From the IMG/VR virus record IMGVR_UViG_3300027833_000080, positions 1-46,837 of that record: DNA of 46,837 nt. One strand, given 5' to 3'. The DNA is from a virus. How positions within the stretch are numbered: position 1 is the first letter of the stretch; every line of letters starts with the position of its first letter. Below, one piece after another: positions 3,801 to 46,837 of the stretch. A program made the position numbers and the translations under genes. Under the pieces are notes generated by a model. It had not been told where the DNA came from and did no database searches. It saw only the letters and a program-made list of their open reading frames with translations.

Positions 3801-5470
3801 ACTTTGGATCGGAAATGGAACTCTGGGATGCAGGGCCAGCTCCAACAAATACCAGCCAGGAGACAAAGTTAATTCTCGGCGGACTGAGACATCAAAGCTT
3901 CACCAACAATACAGTAAGGTTGTCAATAACTGGTGTATATTCGTTTTTCAAAATCCACTATGGAATAACAGACAGCGCAACAGATCAACAATTCTTGACC
4001 GACATTGCCACATCGTTCGCCGCAATTCCAACTCTAGTTGTTTCAGATTGGGCTGAGGAAAATGTTGACTACGCAGATTTAACAACATTGTCTCTTGATG
4101 CCAATGGCGTGTTTGTAAGTTCAGACCAAAATACTACTAGTGAGTTAGCAACAATTCCTAACTACTTTGCATTCGGAGACTGGACAGCCTCGGTGGTAAA
4201 CAATAGCATTTCATTCTCTCTCTGGTTTAAATGGGATGGAGGAGTAACACCACCAACTAGTCCCTTGACATTACTAGAGTCATCTTGGACAGCCGGCTTT
4301 CCTTTTGAAATCGTAATTTCCAATCAACAATCCGTCCTAACAAATAACCGCAGTAATGCTACTCCTATTGGTGCACAAGTAACTGCTCTCTTGTCTGACT
4401 TAAATATTGACGTTATAGATGGTGGATGGCATCACATTGTGGTTACTAGATCCTATCTACAAACTAGATTCATTCCAATAGGAACCCATGATTATGTCGT
4501 AGTGGATGGGCAATTTGAATCAAGTTATGTTGCAACAGATAATCAGGCAGCTGCGCGACAGACGCGAGAAACAAATTCCAACTTTGAAGATTTTGTTTTG
4601 GGAAGTGACGGAAATGCTTTTAGTATTGATAGTGTTGAAATCAACAATGGTGTCAGTTTAACATTCAAGCAGGCAAAGTGGTTATTCGATCAGGGGAGGG
4701 GAAATGGTAGAATTGTCAATGCAGTTGCTCAACAGACTACCGATCTCTACGCAGTAGGGGCTTCGCGAATCGTTCACACATCACTCCTAAGCAGTCCGTT
4801 GATTGATGTTTCTGGTTTATCTATTGATGCAGATGGAAACTATACAGTTCCATCATCTGGTTTGGACATTAAGGACGTAAACTTTAGATGGGACACGACA
4901 CAGGGTTGGCCCGGTAAGGCATATTCATTCTGGGCTAAATGTAATACTCCAAGCAATAGCAATAAAACTTTGTTTCAACTACACTATGGCCTCGGCACAT
5001 TTATGGCAAATAACCAGGCGACTTTCGGATGGAGACTCCATACGAATACTGGAACGCTCAATCCTAAATTATCAACGACCATCGTCGCAGCACGCGAGCG
5101 GGATGGAAGGAATAACAGTTGGGCTGGATTTAGGCAGATCTTTCCGGGAGCCAACGACCTTTATTATGGAGACGAACTCGCTGTCCTAGATGGAAATATG
5201 AAACATTTCATAATTTCAATTGTAAAGAATGCCGACAAGAGTGTGACCATGAAGACATATGTAAATGGAATCCTAGTCAATGCAAAGACTGCTGGGACAA
5301 ACTCAAAGTACTGTATCCGCAACGGTCTTGTAGGAGAATTTACAGTAGATCCAATAATGACTATGAATGGAGATATTGAAGTATTGCTTGGCGAGTTTGA
5401 CGACACCGAAGCAACCAGCATTTTCAATGCAGCGAAAGTAAGCAACCCGTACGCAGCTAATTTGATATAA
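899..5470 (+). CDS. Giant Ig-like/LamG-like surface or fiber protein (1523 aa)
   Basis: The start is placed at ATG 899 because AAGGAAC lies just upstream; the frame is open earlier, from 839. After a globular N-terminal part of about 160 residues comes an acidic and Gly/Asn/Ser-rich linker (roughly residues 165-205). Three related Ig-like beta domains follow (about 215-560); each begins with a DLLxITS-like strand and contains a TWSYT- or TWTHD-like strand. Between domains 2 and 3 is a Glu-Gly repeat. The rest contains at least two LamG/concanavalin-type segments (ISFSLWFKW...GGWHHIVVTR near residue 1085-1190; AYSFWAK near 1340). Such domains bind carbohydrate or other surface polymers, so a tail fiber, whisker or Hoc-like capsid adhesin is likely. 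Its place next to gp23 under its own late promoter favours a head-decorating or fiber role. The exact virion location cannot be decided. Confidence 0.7.
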   Translation: MKYTFSNYKSYKKLIVDKTTKSTLEQLVRTGDILVPNGLGSCNIELPGLANSHGLEVIKMARTDGGFRISINRGRGQLKGLVMALDENDNCRIFPIADNTRSVVFTDGLADGSSTKLLSDSNDWFMWTLGGRASATPPAPYLYQSPSNGGLASREAADDGEEESITGRGDGNGSGGSGGGNGAGNGGGNGGGNSSESETTPRPAPLGSSVVSVDLLTITSIVDENNVSYPIAGDTIAAASTTLTFTGTYHNDVQSITLSGQETVALGINNTWTHDVALSSLGRHTLVFRAFAEDGSGSPYGPERQTAVFVLDVEESSGHLLGYDLLEITHVNGTEWSDGDSVGAITIPSTITISGIYHEDVEGAIANGRSESGSLSFDTNNNTWSYTETITTVETITFSFTASYEYDLETETVSIEFAEAIIEGEGEGEGEGEGGGGNVDLTPDLFTITSTKDAANLDVQGSVISASEDITVSGDILVVGAAPSINGASVTVNGDTWSYTQTLTSTTTLDFSCIDPGNANNIDTESVTIALIDPTQVLSVPIAQNLPTLVDQPAATLAVTEDGDIQSVGDTFVFDTNNGGTFPTNEDLFTIEVLISMTGNMRVLDFIGTSSYIEVLGNKLVAGGTLFTANPEYVDSSIVTSSKTTLIDLTSQNIDLTDGVTRRLVLVFDRRWSVGSTANDKKGSWRIHGAIGAPGGTTYHTDRFFYFPNISSNVELLKTSINIGMGSFVLKNLVILENIDFAPNQIEYAITNSVTIIEAMTSTTAQRITTPAHSDANLVITQPDILDEGTGLLNESYGIVNFLTSAKSYSPGMIHSLNDSYPTHAHGKTIAIGVQLHDEYPEVFPSDDWRCVISRFAWNSYGTTQHLRNQFRGWGLMLKHDSTTDTYSVAWVKQCRNTIGDDIDSNYAGLVAGRVDGLALTNPNQLSFIIKSTLSDTYRGYNSINVFLNDASAPILTFDVDNYSFSTNFGSEMELWDAGPAPTNTSQETKLILGGLRHQSFTNNTVRLSITGVYSFFKIHYGITDSATDQQFLTDIATSFAAIPTLVVSDWAEENVDYADLTTLSLDANGVFVSSDQNTTSELATIPNYFAFGDWTASVVNNSISFSLWFKWDGGVTPPTSPLTLLESSWTAGFPFEIVISNQQSVLTNNRSNATPIGAQVTALLSDLNIDVIDGGWHHIVVTRSYLQTRFIPIGTHDYVVVDGQFESSYVATDNQAAARQTRETNSNFEDFVLGSDGNAFSIDSVEINNGVSLTFKQAKWLFDQGRGNGRIVNAVAQQTTDLYAVGASRIVHTSLLSSPLIDVSGLSIDADGNYTVPSSGLDIKDVNFRWDTTQGWPGKAYSFWAKCNTPSNSNKTLFQLHYGLGTFMANNQATFGWRLHTNTGTLNPKLSTTIVAARERDGRNNSWAGFRQIFPGANDLYYGDELAVLDGNMKHFIISIVKNADKSVTMKTYVNGILVNAKTAGTNSKYCIRNGLVGEFTVDPIMTMNGDIEVLLGEFDDTEATSIFNAAKVSNPYAANLI
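2165..2200 (+). repeat. Six tandem GAAGGN hexamers encoding (Glu-Gly)6
   Basis: Six in-frame copies of GAAGG[A/C/T] encode a Glu-Gly linker between the second and third Ig-like domains of the fiber protein. Unit length is a multiple of three, so slippage would change linker length without breaking the frame. Confidence 0.85.
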
Positions 5471-32748: not shown

Positions 32749-32777
32749 TTGACAAACCTCCTTAGATATGTTACATT
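32749..32777 (+). promoter_or_regulatory. Early-type promoter for AlaRS-like operon
   Basis: TTGACA (32749-32754), 17 bases, TACATT (32772-32777). It begins 6 bases after the previous stop codon and 20 bases separate the -10 box from the ATG at 32797, so the leader is very short. Confidence 0.8.
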
Positions 32778-32796
32778 ATCATACGGAGGATATATT

Positions 32797-33660
32797 ATGA
32801 TAGATATAGTTGATTTATATAGACAGTTTTGCGAGAGCAAAGGAGTTCAATTCCAATTGGACGACAATGTCCGACCTTACGACAATACCACATTATTTTG
32901 CCCTGCAGGAATGCAGCAATTCAAAGAGAAGTTTAAGTCGGAAGAGACGGGAACACTAGCAAACGTGCAGTCATGCATAAGACTCAATGACCTTGAGGAG
33001 ATAGGTGATGGAACACACTATCTTTATTTTGATATGATAGGACTATTCTCTTTCAGGACTCTTACAGTTCAGCAGTCAGTTGACTTTTGGATGGAGTTCG
33101 TCGAAGGCACCCTAGCGATCAAAGTAGATTACGTCACCATCCATCCGGATAAGATGGAGGATTGGAAAAGCCTTTACGAAAACTACGATGTGGAGGTCAG
33201 ACCAGATGAAGAGTGCAAATGGACCGATGGACAAATCGGCGGCTATTGCACAGAGTTCTTTAAGGACGACGTCGAGATTGGAAACATCGTAAACCCACTT
33301 GGAACCTGCATTGACGTCGGCTTTGGTCTTCAAAGACTTAGCATGTTCGTCAACGGGAAAAACGAAGAGACTCGCGAAGAGATCCTGATACAAGCATGCG
33401 AGAAGCTACTACACTCAGGTTACTATCCGAGCAACAAGGAACAAGGCTATGTATTTCGAAAGTTGTTGCGAGAACTCTACAGATTAGGCTCAGATTGGGA
33501 TAACGAACACTATCTCAAAGAGAAGAAGAGGCAAGACAAGGTTGTAGAAAACTACAACAGAAATAAGGACAAACCCAAGTTTAAAGACAAGTCCAATGAA
33601 TGGTGGTTCGACACCATGGGAATAGATATTGATTTCATAAAAAGTCTGGAGGACAAATGA
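32797..33660 (+). CDS. Alanyl-tRNA synthetase-like catalytic domain protein (287 aa)
   Basis: ATG 32797 is chosen because the promoter lies before it and CGGAGGATATATT is the ribosome binding site. Class II AlaRS features appear in order: LFCPAGMQQFKEKF (34-46; cf. LFTNAGMNQFKD), CIRLNDLEEIG (60-70; cf. CVRAGGKHNDLENVG, with five residues missing), YFDMIGLFSF (77-86, motif 2), CTEFF (151-155), CIDVGFGLQRLSM (171-183, motif 3; cf. DTGMGLERI) and YPSNKEQGYVFRKLLREL (210-227; cf. PSNENRGYVLRRIIR). The tRNA-recognition, editing and C-Ala domains of the roughly 875-residue enzyme are absent or reduced to about 60 residues. Adenylate formation is possible; charging of normal tRNA-Ala is doubtful. 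It overlaps the exonuclease gene by 4 bases. Confidence 0.82.
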   Translation: MIDIVDLYRQFCESKGVQFQLDDNVRPYDNTTLFCPAGMQQFKEKFKSEETGTLANVQSCIRLNDLEEIGDGTHYLYFDMIGLFSFRTLTVQQSVDFWMEFVEGTLAIKVDYVTIHPDKMEDWKSLYENYDVEVRPDEECKWTDGQIGGYCTEFFKDDVEIGNIVNPLGTCIDVGFGLQRLSMFVNGKNEETREEILIQACEKLLHSGYYPSNKEQGYVFRKLLRELYRLGSDWDNEHYLKEKKRQDKVVENYNRNKDKPKFKDKSNEWWFDTMGIDIDFIKSLEDK

Positions 33661-43337: not shown

Positions 43338-43826
43338 ATGAAACTTACAAAACAAACATTAAGAAGAATTATCAAAGAAGAGCTCGAAGCAGTCATGAAC
43401 GAAGTAAGACTTGAGCCGGATCATTCTTATTTCGCATCAGATGATCAAATAACAAAGATTCGTAGCCTCCTTGACTCAGGTGACCCTGAGTTAATCAACA
43501 TGGCAAAAACACTTCTTGACACTCTCGAACCAAGCGGGGGCTTCCTTGATGACTACATGCAAAACCAAGAAGTTGGAGATGTGGAAAAGTTAGCAAACAA
43601 ACATGGCGTCGCCGGATCGATTCATGGCTCGGATTGGGATTCCCAGAAGGAAGCACTAGCGGACTGGGTTCGTGAAATAAACAAGTTTGCAGATAGAGAG
43701 CAGGGAAGAGGCCGCAGCCCAGCAGATGCCGACAAAGAGTTTGTTGGTAGGTATAATTCCGTTGTAGATACATATAAACCTAAAGGTTTGTCCGAATCAT
43801 CCAACCTTAAAGGTAAAAAGAAATGA
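43338..43826 (+). CDS. Putative packaged protein with capsid-targeting-like leader (162 aa)
   Basis: MKLTKQTLRRIIKEELEAVM shows the consensus leader, and IKE and MNE (20-23) are possible cleavage sites. The rest is a small, acidic, helical domain (ITKIRSLLDSGDPELINMAKTLLDTL) followed by a basic tail (KGLSESSNLKGKKK). No family is recognised. It is the first gene after a late promoter within the replication region, and overlaps the next gene by 4 bases. Confidence 0.62.
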   Translation: MKLTKQTLRRIIKEELEAVMNEVRLEPDHSYFASDDQITKIRSLLDSGDPELINMAKTLLDTLEPSGGFLDDYMQNQEVGDVEKLANKHGVAGSIHGSDWDSQKEALADWVREINKFADREQGRGRSPADADKEFVGRYNSVVDTYKPKGLSESSNLKGKKK

Positions 43827-44281
43827 ACATCACAAACGAGCAATTGCGAAACATCATAGCAGAAGAGCTTGCAGTTGTTCTAGCTGAAGAATCATCCGAC
43901 CTTAAAGAAAAAGAGATAACCGACCCGTGCATTTGGAAAGACCGACCATCGCACAGGCCACCAGGAATAAGCCAACCAAAGGCCCAAGAACTGTGTGATG
44001 CCCAACCGCAAGAAGGAGAACTAGAAGAGGCCAAGAAGAAGAAGAAGGCATGCAAACCATCCAAAGGTAAACGCTTCGCAAAGCGAGTCAATGGTAAGTG
44101 CCGCTCTTACGGACAGAAAGGAAAAGCAAAAGGCGGCGGTGACCGCATTAGACCCGGAACAAAGAAGGGTGATGCTTATTGTGCTCGATCTTTAAAGATT
44201 AAAAAGTGCAAGAACCCGCCATGTGCGAATGCTCTTTCACGAAAGAAGTGGAAATGTAAAGGCGCGAAGAGTCAGAAGTGA
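43823..44281 (+). CDS. Putative packaged basic Cys-rich protein with leader (152 aa)
   Basis: The leader is MNITNEQLRNIIAEELAVVL, ending in a LAE site. The second half is strongly basic with seven or more Cys and repeated KGK/RSYGQKGK motifs (KACKPSKGKRFAKRVNGKCR ... SLKIKKCKNPPC), suited to binding DNA or the inside of a DNA-filled head. The Cys may bind metal. The gene is paired with the 43338 gene and the small membrane protein on one late transcript. T4 internal proteins are likewise small, basic and cleaved. Confidence 0.65.
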   Translation: MNITNEQLRNIIAEELAVVLAEESSDLKEKEITDPCIWKDRPSHRPPGISQPKAQELCDAQPQEGELEEAKKKKKACKPSKGKRFAKRVNGKCRSYGQKGKAKGGGDRIRPGTKKGDAYCARSLKIKKCKNPPCANALSRKKWKCKGAKSQK

Positions 44282-44430
44282 TAGTCGATCTTTGGTTTAG
44301 AATGATATTCTGGAAGGCAATGTTCTTTGGGATAATGATTCCGTCCGTTGCTTTCAGCTGTTATTGGTATTTGCTCTACAGACAGCAACAAGCATTTATA
44401 AAAAAGTTAGAAGAAATGCTTGACAAGTGA
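44278..44430 (+). CDS. Small single-span membrane protein (50 aa)
   Basis: GTG 44278 overlaps the stop of the previous gene (GTGA). The product has a long hydrophobic span (LWFRMIFWKAMFFGIMIPSV then AFSCYWYLLY) and a charged helical tail RQQQAFIKKLEEMLDK. The -35 box of the next promoter lies inside its last codons. It may be an inner-membrane component for the injected or late proteins; function unknown. Confidence 0.55.
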   Translation: MIVDLWFRMIFWKAMFFGIMIPSVAFSCYWYLLYRQQQAFIKKLEEMLDK

Positions 44431-44448
44431 TCCTTAATAGGTTATATT
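44420..44448 (+). promoter_or_regulatory. Early-type promoter for nuclease-methyltransferase pair
   Basis: TTGACA (44420-44425), 17 bases, TATATT (44443-44448), with an imperfect dyad GGTTATATT/AATATACC over the -10 box. The leader to the ATG at 44473 is short and holds AAAGGAGG. Confidence 0.8.
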
Positions 44449-44472
44449 GTAATATACCCAAAAGGAGGATGT

Positions 44473-45327
44473 ATGACAATAAACAAGCTTATTCAGAAGA
44501 CAATAGAGAAGAACGAACACAAGTTTCCAAACCAACTAAGACAGCCTATAGCAGACTTTCTAAGGTACTCGCTCATAGGCTACTCTTACACACACGACCT
44601 CATGACCGAGTTGCATGCACTTATGACATTCTTGTCATCACCAATACCATCGCCCAAATTAGAAAAGAATTTCCGAACCGATAGTTTTTTTGCGGACAAC
44701 TTTTCATCTATTCAAAAGAATAAACTGTTTCCCTTCTTTTGTGCCAACATGTATGGTGTAAAGCAAAAAAACTATGGAGCAGGAGAAGCACTTTTAGCAA
44801 TGTTCTTTGATGATATTGAACAAGCAGGCAAAATTGGAGACTTCATTCTAGGAGGAAAGCATTTGGAGATAAAATCAGTTGTGCATGCAGCAAGCCTAAA
44901 GGCGCACAAGGATTCTAGTTTCCGGCCATCAAACAAGGCCTTTAAGAAAATTTATGGAGAAAAACAGAGGGGTTTAAGCCAATTTTGGAATGGTGAATTG
45001 TCACTTTTCAGCGAGTATTGCAATGCTGTCTATCCGCATTTGTCTCACGCTCTCATTTCAGAGGTTCACTCCTTACGTGATGATATCAAATGCAGACAAC
45101 ATTTGGGAACCATCATATTGAAAAAGTACAAACAAATAGATGTGTTCGACAACCTAATTGTTGTAAAACCATCAGAAGACAATGGTGATATTTCTTTTCT
45201 CAATATTGCTGACTTTTCAGCAGAAGAATTTATTAAAAAACATTTAACATTCACACCCGTACTGCATCGAGGCAAAGGCACTCAAGCATTGGGTGATGGA
45301 TACGTTGACATTAAACTAAAAAAATAG
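44473..45327 (+). CDS. Putative PD-(D/E)XK nuclease next to methyltransferase (284 aa)
   Basis: The core fits restriction-type PD-(D/E)XK nucleases: GAGEALLAMFF (E105), GDFILGGKHLEIKS with D123 and E132-x-K134, then a helix. This acidic-D-ExK order with the preceding GE helix is common in type II restriction enzymes. The rest is helical with Lys-rich stretches. It sits 8 bases upstream of a D12-class adenine methyltransferase, the standard layout of a restriction-modification pair, under its own promoter. Specificity cannot be read from the sequence. AAAGGAGGATGT precedes ATG. Confidence 0.62.
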   Translation: MTINKLIQKTIEKNEHKFPNQLRQPIADFLRYSLIGYSYTHDLMTELHALMTFLSSPIPSPKLEKNFRTDSFFADNFSSIQKNKLFPFFCANMYGVKQKNYGAGEALLAMFFDDIEQAGKIGDFILGGKHLEIKSVVHAASLKAHKDSSFRPSNKAFKKIYGEKQRGLSQFWNGELSLFSEYCNAVYPHLSHALISEVHSLRDDIKCRQHLGTIILKKYKQIDVFDNLIVVKPSEDNGDISFLNIADFSAEEFIKKHLTFTPVLHRGKGTQALGDGYVDIKLKK

Positions 45328-45335
45328 GAGAACAC

Positions 45336-46409
45336 ATGACAACAAAACAAACAAAAACAGAAACAAAGGGCGTACGATACCTAGGTTCAAAGAACAAGAT
45401 CATCCCAACCTTATTAAAGGTAATCGGTGACTTACCAGTAGACGATAAGACAATGATAGATGTATTTACAGGAACTACAAGGGTAGCACAGGCATTTAAG
45501 TCTCACGGTTGGGGTGTGACCACGTCTGACCTAGCATGGGCTTCTGAGGCCTACTCTTCAAACTTTATAGAGTTGTCTGACAACTCTCATCTTCAAAAGT
45601 ATATCGATGAAATGAATAAGTTAACAGGAGCCACTGGCTGGTTGACTGAGAACTATTGCGATGTAACAACCGAGTCCGGTGGTCTTGTGAGGGTTTGGAA
45701 ACCAAAAAATGGCAAAAAAGCCGATGTCATGCGTGATTATATCGAGACTTTAGATATATCACGAAAAGATAAGATGTGCCTTGTTACGTCCCTCATCTTT
45801 TCACTAGACAAGATAGACAACACAGTGGGCTTACAACAGGCGTATTTAAAACACTGGGCTTCGAAAAGAGTCGACACAGATTTAAAGGTATCACTGATAC
45901 CATCGGTCAAAGGTGTTGCAGGAAACCATATCACCGGCAACGCTTTGGAGATAAAGTATGATAAAGCATCGGTAGCATATTTAGATCCTCCATATACTCC
46001 TGCAGATTATTCAACATATTATCACATATGGGATAGCATTACAGCATGGGACAAGCCTAAGGTATCTCTAAAGACCAACCGAAGAGTCGATAGGGTCAAG
46101 TCTGGCGATGATCGTGACGAGAAGATGAAGTCTCCATGGTATTCAAAAAAGTCAGCACTTAAGGCAACCAAGCAACTCATTGATAGGCTGCCGGTTAAGT
46201 ACTGTGTTTTTTCTTATTCTGATGAGGGCATTATTAAGAAGGCGGACATGGAAGCGTTGTGCAACGAATATAAGTCAGTTGTATGGCATGAGAAGGAGCA
46301 CAACCGCCACGTAATGTCTCGCATTGGTGCCGGTGGTGATGAGGCCGAGAATGCCAAAAAGAAGAAGTTGTCTGAATGGATTATTGTCATTGAGAAAGAA
46401 CAAGAATAA
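45336..46409 (+). CDS. D12-class DNA N6-adenine methyltransferase (357 aa)
   Basis: KGVRYLGSKNKIIPTLL at the start is the SAM-pocket entry of the D12 class. IDVFTGTTRVAQAF (motif I, D42) and VAYLDPPYTP (motif IV, DPPY 217-220) complete the active site, and CVFSYSDEGII is typical of motif VI. It methylates adenine in DNA; with the neighbouring nuclease it would protect phage DNA from cutting, or alone from host restriction. AGGAGAACAC precedes ATG. A promoter for the UV endonuclease gene follows. Confidence 0.88.
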   Translation: MTTKQTKTETKGVRYLGSKNKIIPTLLKVIGDLPVDDKTMIDVFTGTTRVAQAFKSHGWGVTTSDLAWASEAYSSNFIELSDNSHLQKYIDEMNKLTGATGWLTENYCDVTTESGGLVRVWKPKNGKKADVMRDYIETLDISRKDKMCLVTSLIFSLDKIDNTVGLQQAYLKHWASKRVDTDLKVSLIPSVKGVAGNHITGNALEIKYDKASVAYLDPPYTPADYSTYYHIWDSITAWDKPKVSLKTNRRVDRVKSGDDRDEKMKSPWYSKKSALKATKQLIDRLPVKYCVFSYSDEGIIKKADMEALCNEYKSVVWHEKEHNRHVMSRIGAGGDEAENAKKKKLSEWIIVIEKEQE

Positions 46410-46430: not shown

Positions 46431-46459
46431 TTGACAAAATGTCTTGGGCGTGTTACATT
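46431..46459 (+). promoter_or_regulatory. Early-type promoter for UV endonuclease gene
   Basis: TTGACA (46431-46436), 17 bases, TACATT (46454-46459), with arms GTTACATTA/TAATATAAC around it. Confidence 0.8.
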
Positions 46460-46485
46460 ATTAATATAACAATCATGGAGGACAA

Positions 46486-46837
46486 ATGATTAACAACTAC
46501 AACCTAGGCTATGCCTGCATCAACAGCGAACTTTCATCACTGAAGGTGAAGGTATCAACCAACCGCACAATGCGGAAGAAGACATTCGAAGAGAAAGGTT
46601 TGGACTATGTATCCGAGATCATCCTGCAGAACGTCACAGACCTGCTAGCCATCCTTAGGTGGAATGCAAAGCACGACATTCACTTCTTCCGCATCTCTTC
46701 AGAAATTTTCCCATGGGCTTCAGAGTATGAGATGGAAGACCTTAAAGACTTCGACGCTATCGAAGAAGCCCTCTATGAAGCCGGCCTGTTTGCTAACGAG
46801 AACGACATTCGTCTCACATGCCATCCCGGCCCCTTCA
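46486..46837 (+). CDS. uvsE: UV damage endonuclease UvsE/UvdE, N-terminal part (cut by window end)
   Basis: ATG 46486 follows ATGGAGGACAA. The 117 visible residues start INNYNLGYACINSELS, then a helix with LQNVTDLLAILRWNAKHDIH, FFRISSEIFPWAS and RLTCHPGPF. This is the first half of the TIM-barrel UvdE family (cf. RFGFVS, NLRNTMRTLHYI, LYRFSSSIVPLA, RTSFHPNQF). The enzyme nicks DNA 5' of UV photoproducts and some other lesions. The gene continues past the window. Confidence 0.88.
   Translation, partial: MINNYNLGYACINSELSSLKVKVSTNRTMRKKTFEEKGLDYVSEIILQNVTDLLAILRWNAKHDIHFFRISSEIFPWASEYEMEDLKDFDAIEEALYEAGLFANENDIRLTCHPGPF

Follow-up and report, generated by a model that had tools for sequence, protein, structure and literature searches.

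A PD-(D/E)XK nuclease gene adjoining a methyltransferase gene is the layout of type II restriction-modification (R-M) systems. The PD-(D/E)XK superfamily is very diverse, and membership does not require a match to the profile of a described family. R-M systems are also borne by viruses: those of chloroviruses have been proposed to be used against host DNA and that of marseilleviruses, which is present in one clade only, against rival viruses (PMC7253447). In addition, phage methylases that protect against host restriction have been documented, such as those of the lactococcal 936 phages (PMC4190342).

The locus described here is probably an R-M module of type II-like organisation, located in an exchangeable slot of a tailed phage, and its nuclease represents a putative new family. 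The window (the whole stretch of DNA analysed, 46,837 nt) is an IMG/VR virus record derived from environmental sequencing, and annotation within it yields the gene set of a contractile-tail phage, including tail sheath, UvsX-like recombinase, DnaB-like helicase, ribonucleotide reductase, and thymidylate synthase genes. No N6/N4-type methylase was found within the window, which is a fragment of the phage, and further methylases or nucleases of the same phage may be missed.

Two other observations on the phage are recorded here. Five different window proteins (starts 31217, 31966, 38499, 43338, and 43823) share an N-terminal leader, M-K/N-L/I-T-x3-L-x2-I/L/M-I/V-x-E, a pattern matched by 3 of 1566 minus-strand ORFs. 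Genes with this leader form tandem arrays in relatives, and in L070-L076 they are found upstream of UvdE; the leader may be a capsid-targeting or prohead-protease leader. The protein encoded at 32749-33660 has an N-terminus that resembles, by eye, the core of alanyl-tRNA synthetase, and PHROGs assigns it to a family of no known function.

The gene pair and its predicted products

The pair and its surroundings comprise the following features:

43823..44281, plus strand: lysine-rich protein, function not assigned, left-hand marker of the slot (ORF list, comparison with relatives)
44420..44448, plus strand: upstream promoter TTGACA-N17-TATATT, of a phage-wide type (sequence, relatives)
44440..44469, plus strand: left junction of the cassette, up to which the alignment to the empty site of L071 runs (alignment)
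44461..44468, plus strand: ribosome-binding site AAAGGAGG of the nuclease gene (sequence)
44473..45327, plus strand: putative type II restriction nuclease of a new family, "type A", 284 aa, with E105/D123/E132/K134 (motif conservation, model)
45336..46409, plus strand: D12-class N6-adenine DNA methyltransferase, 357 aa, with motif I DVFTGTTRV and motif IV DPPY (Pfam, PADLOC, alignment)
46431..46459, plus strand: second promoter TTGACA-N17-TACATT, before UvdE (sequence)
46452..46481, plus strand: right junction of the cassette, aligning to 4968-4997 of the empty site of L071 (alignment)
46486..46837, plus strand: UvdE (UV damage endonuclease), incomplete at the end of the window, right-hand marker of the slot (Pfam PF03851, E 3.8e-23)

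A preliminary description of this DNA had proposed an R-M pair under its own promoter, with the two genes 8 bases apart. Both genes are indeed found at 44473-45327 and 45336-46409 on the plus strand, with 8 bases from the nuclease stop to the methylase ATG. The stop codon TAG overlaps the AGGAG of the methylase gene, and the nuclease gene has a good ribosome-binding site. With regard to the promoter, the proposed TTGACA-17-TATATT is present at 44420-44448 and is the top promoter-like match in the 40-46.8 kb region (11/12), but it is not special to the pair, because it belongs to a phage-wide class and the next gene, UvdE, has a copy of its own. This class has 27 matches in the window with up to two mismatches, against 12.2 expected, a count reached in none of 100 shuffles. 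Eight exact copies of TTGACA-N17-TA[TC]ATT, often with TGTTA[TC]ATT, are distributed over the right half of the window (23426-46459), and the same promoter type precedes UvdE in cassette-free relatives. UvdE itself is not part of the R-M system.

The second gene encodes a clear D12-class enzyme with predicted adenine methyltransferase activity, which matches PF02086 (E 2.7e-22; 80.2 bits against a Pfam cut-off of 22) and PADLOC MTase_II (E 1.6e-61). The segments DVFTGTTRV (42-50) and DPPY (217-220) occur in this order and are invariant or nearly so in an alignment with 14 relatives, the latter being the DPPY noted earlier (D217-P218-P219-Y220). Relatives of the enzyme occur in about 20 viral contigs, mostly at 57-74% identity, while the nearest annotated phage relatives are 24-32% identical. 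The latter include a "putative M.Tsp509I" of Thermus phage phiLo (31.8%) and proteins labelled FokI, LlaI, or "ulcer associated" methylases; transfer of a target sequence from them was rejected since such identity is too low. The genome collection yielded a single methylase match, L067 (CP070664.1, a WOR-3 MAG), in which a run of N links a phage-like methylase fragment to a long structural-looking gene; it is probably a misbinned or scaffolded phage piece.

Depletion of a target motif in the genome had been suggested as a check, and this proved non-discriminating. CATG is the most depleted word in the window (169 observed against 228 expected), and AGCT, GATC, CGCG, and AATT are depleted as well, so that no single motif is singled out by word depletion in the window. 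Depletion is also not expected to persist once a phage methylates its own DNA.

The first gene encodes the type A protein, which has the E...D...(D/E)xK residues of the PD-(D/E)XK superfamily; GE, GDF, and LEIK contain E105, D123, E132, and K134 exactly where they had been placed before. Homologues were found via methylase neighbours and then via a conserved C-terminal pattern. The other full-length sequences are 23-35% identical to the window nuclease, and in the seven full-length members E105, E132, and K134 are invariant, with D123 kept in 6/7. Since the four residues are co-conserved in such remote homologues, the motif is beyond chance. No match was found in Pfam (including PF15515, the MvaI/BcnI family), PHROGs, NCBIfam, PADLOC, or PDB sequences, and no usable match among phage records; a hit to PDB 2mh2 (E 0.26) was taken as chance. 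A profile match to a non-nuclease family, which had been named as the outcome that would count against a nuclease, did not appear in these libraries, but no described nuclease family matched either, and type A is therefore regarded as a putative new nuclease family. The genome collection gave no type A homologue, a weak negative as the search pattern was limited to the C-terminal [TNS]QA[VL][GA]DGY. Synonymous sites were saturated in every type A pair compared, leaving no usable dN/dS value.

An AlphaFold model of type A, built on 8 sequences, is of moderate confidence (pLDDT 74.5, pTM 0.73; four other models, pLDDT 47-64). It places E105 in a helix (103-111), D123 in a strand (123-126), and E132 and K134 in a further strand (129-135), an order of elements that agrees with PD-(D/E)XK proteins. 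Foldseek against the PDB gave nothing significant, with no row below E 0.38, the value of the top rows (beta-carbonic anhydrases, not significant); against BFVD it retrieved uncharacterised phage proteins with no function (best E 4e-7, TM 0.59). In a second look with the VIA aligner, 10 of 19 rows were restriction endonucleases, including MspI (Z 4.1, 144 aligned, rmsd 5.4), HinP1I (Z 4.0, 147 aligned, rmsd 4.2), Eco15I, 3ndh, PvuII, HincII, and DpnI, and 3 of 19 were lambda exonuclease; the Z scores, at most 4.1, are low on their own. The comparison thus backs a PD-(D/E)XK fold without proving it.

Probable exchange of cassettes and of nucleases

The slot before UvdE accepts unrelated R-M systems. 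In the relative L071, identity to the window is 96.5% over 3.3 kb on the left side of the pair and 93% in UvdE, but neither cassette gene is there, and just one promoter is located before UvdE. Both cassette junctions in the window align to the same stretch of about 30 nt of this empty site (4968-4997), and the slot of L070 is likewise empty. In L069, whose UvdE fragment has 99% protein identity to the window UvdE, the slot is occupied by a 228 aa MvaI/BcnI-family nuclease (MvaI_BcnI PF15515, E 1.5e-19) and an overlapping N6_N4_Mtase gene (E 3.9e-27). This pair is flanked by 80-nt direct repeats, 85% identical, which span the promoter, ribosome-binding site, and start codon. A pair of this kind also follows the same promoter in L097. 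That one slot holds either the window pair or an unmistakable type II pair is the strongest argument that the former is an R-M system as well. The comparison is based on metagenome contigs, and separate contigs joined chimerically at the shared promoter could mimic such variation; this is possible but unlikely, as the flanking identity and the two independent MvaI-type cases speak against it. The exchangeability of the cassette, which was absent from the preliminary description, is a more unusual point than the R-M pair itself.

Nuclease partners of the methylase lineage vary too. Apart from L021/L022, where a relative of the window methylase has no evident nuclease partner, one of two nuclease types is found upstream of the window-type methylase in complete contigs: type A in the window, L003, L005-L007, L012, L015, and part of L002, and type B (165-175 aa) in L004, L008-L011, L013, L014, L016, L018-L020, and L051. 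The type B protein encoded at L010:3391-3900 has homologues in L004, L008, L009, L014, L016, L019, L051, and L057. Type B matches PDDEXK_11 weakly, and its model is confident (pLDDT 85.6), with a restriction-enzyme fold that resembles the type II enzymes BsaWI (Z 9.3, 145 aligned, rmsd 3.1) and BstEII (Z 9.1). It is under purifying selection (dN/dS 0.075, L008/L009) and is probably a second undescribed restriction nuclease family, unrelated to type A. Its profile search against the PDB returned just de novo designed proteins and a glycosidase, which were rejected as chance.

Every complete locus of either type keeps the nuclease gene and the methylase gene adjacent. A D12 methylase lies directly downstream of the type A homologue in every locus examined, while the other neighbours (dnaE, uvsX, uvdE, and others) vary; in L029 and L030-L032, type A precedes a methylase of a different, Dam-like D12 subfamily. 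The tree of methylases places L005/L006, which are type A phages, within a well-supported clade (98/99) that is otherwise of type B, and its starred branches require at least two changes of partner.

A second place of this sort lies between uvsX and an ssb-like gene. L005 and L008-L010 have type A or B pairs there, L081/L085 have other D12 methylases, and L078, L086, and L087 have just a short ORF. An R-M-like pair adjoining uvsX in L083 (521-1866) consists of a D12 methylase gene and, overlapping it, the gene of a 160 aa protein with weak similarity to MunI. L005 has two modification modules in tandem, in that a GmrSD_N-like protein and a Dam-like methylase (L005:1675-3637) directly precede the type A pair.

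The nuclease may also be replaced on its own. Between L012 and L015, identity is 92% for DnaE, 94% for the methylase, and 91% for dUTPase, but just 40% for the type A nuclease, and at the DNA level an identity of 0.93-0.97 gives way to about 0.5 within the nuclease gene before rising to 0.91 at the methylase. Because synonymous sites have changed too, recombinational replacement, independent of the methylase, appears likelier than fast selection.

Proposed role and alternative explanations

Good support for the R-M pair proposed in the preliminary description comes from the conserved motif, the tendency of the fold, the constant pairing, and the swap of the slot contents for a type II pair. 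Briefly, a tailed phage would carry a cassette of promoter, nuclease, and methylase. The methylase would put N6-methyladenine on a short motif in the phage DNA, and the PD-(D/E)XK nuclease would cut DNA in which this motif, the presumed target of both enzymes, is unmethylated. Because the mark would travel on virion DNA and stay hemimethylated through replication, the phage itself would escape; cutting would fall on host DNA that lacks the mark or on a co-infecting phage without the cassette. Whole R-M cassettes would be gained, lost, and exchanged in the slot before UvdE, with the duplicated promoter/start region as the probable site of homologous recombination, and nuclease genes would be replaceable independently of the methylase.

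The patchy, swappable distribution leans to phage-phage competition. Another reading is that of a selfish cassette, whose nuclease would cut cassette-free co-infecting relatives so that recombinational repair spreads the cassette in a homing-endonuclease-like manner. Such spread is compatible with the R-M module and is possible, if doubtful. It would fit the clean presence or absence at one site between near-identical phages, the promoter repeats that supply homology for exchange, and the nuclease swapped alone between L012 and L015; however, a type II nuclease would cut many sites rather than the insertion site, making the gain less direct than in homing.

As a variant of the R-M reading, the nuclease could serve solely to break down the DNA of the host, whether to salvage nucleotides or to shut the host off, with no role against phages. 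This use was proposed for chlorovirus R-M enzymes (PMC7253447), and the ribonucleotide reductase and thymidylate synthase genes of the phage are in keeping with it. We consider it unlikely, since the marseillevirus system left host DNA undegraded and could cut a related virus (PMC7253447), and since a salvage function would be expected to belong to the core genes, so that its patchy presence in close relatives agrees better with competition.

It is distinctly improbable that the methylase acts by itself, in an anti-restriction role that protects against type II enzymes of the host, beside an unrelated or decayed upstream ORF. The precedent of the lactococcal 936 phages (PMC4190342) and the L021/L022 relative would favour such a role, whereas the type A catalytic residues are kept over very deep divergence, each complete locus of type A or B has a nuclease gene directly upstream, the partners come from two unrelated PD-(D/E)XK-like families, and a definite R-M pair fills the same slot. 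A PD-(D/E)XK repair or recombination enzyme merely lying beside the methylase is highly improbable: the neighbouring UvdE is a repair enzyme and lambda exonuclease is among the weak fold matches, but other type A neighbours change while the D12 methylase stays.

More broadly, the chances seem about even that unrelated R-M modules circulate in a group of tailed phages through dedicated places (the slot before UvdE, the interval from the ssb-like gene to uvsX, and a site beside dnaE), moved by recombination at duplicated promoters, with nuclease swaps beside a conserved methylase, use against rival phages, and undescribed families (type A and probably type B). No description of such R-M exchange slots was found in the open-access literature, a weak negative. 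Restriction is usually told as a matter of bacteria against phages, and a swap slot would show phages using the same weapon; if so, phage slots would play for viruses, in contests with rival phages, the part that defence islands play in bacteria. In addition, the type A and B families may supply new enzymes that cut DNA sequence-specifically, and the pairing of a single methylase lineage with exchangeable nucleases would be a natural experiment on the matching of restriction and modification specificities.

Comparison with known systems

M.Tsp509I-like and M.FokI-like D12 methylases are the nearest annotated kin of the window methylase, too distant for their targets to be carried over. MvaI/BcnI enzymes (PF15515) with an N6/N4 methylase occupy the window's slot in L069 and L097 and differ from the window pair in both nuclease and methylase family, with no homology in the searches made. 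The "mobile regulatory cassettes" of T4-type phages (Arbiol et al. 2010, cited in PMC4177764) may be a further parallel; promoter repeats flank the L069 cassette. With type II R-M systems, the window shares two adjacent genes, a D12-class methylase, and a putative PD-(D/E)XK nuclease with E...D...ExK; it differs in a nuclease family outside the searched libraries and in the phage exchange slot. Like the R-M systems of chloroviruses and marseilleviruses (PMC7253447), it presents a complete virus-borne R-M pair; however, those viruses infect eukaryotic cells, whereas here tailed phages carry several interchangeable, unrelated R-M pairs.
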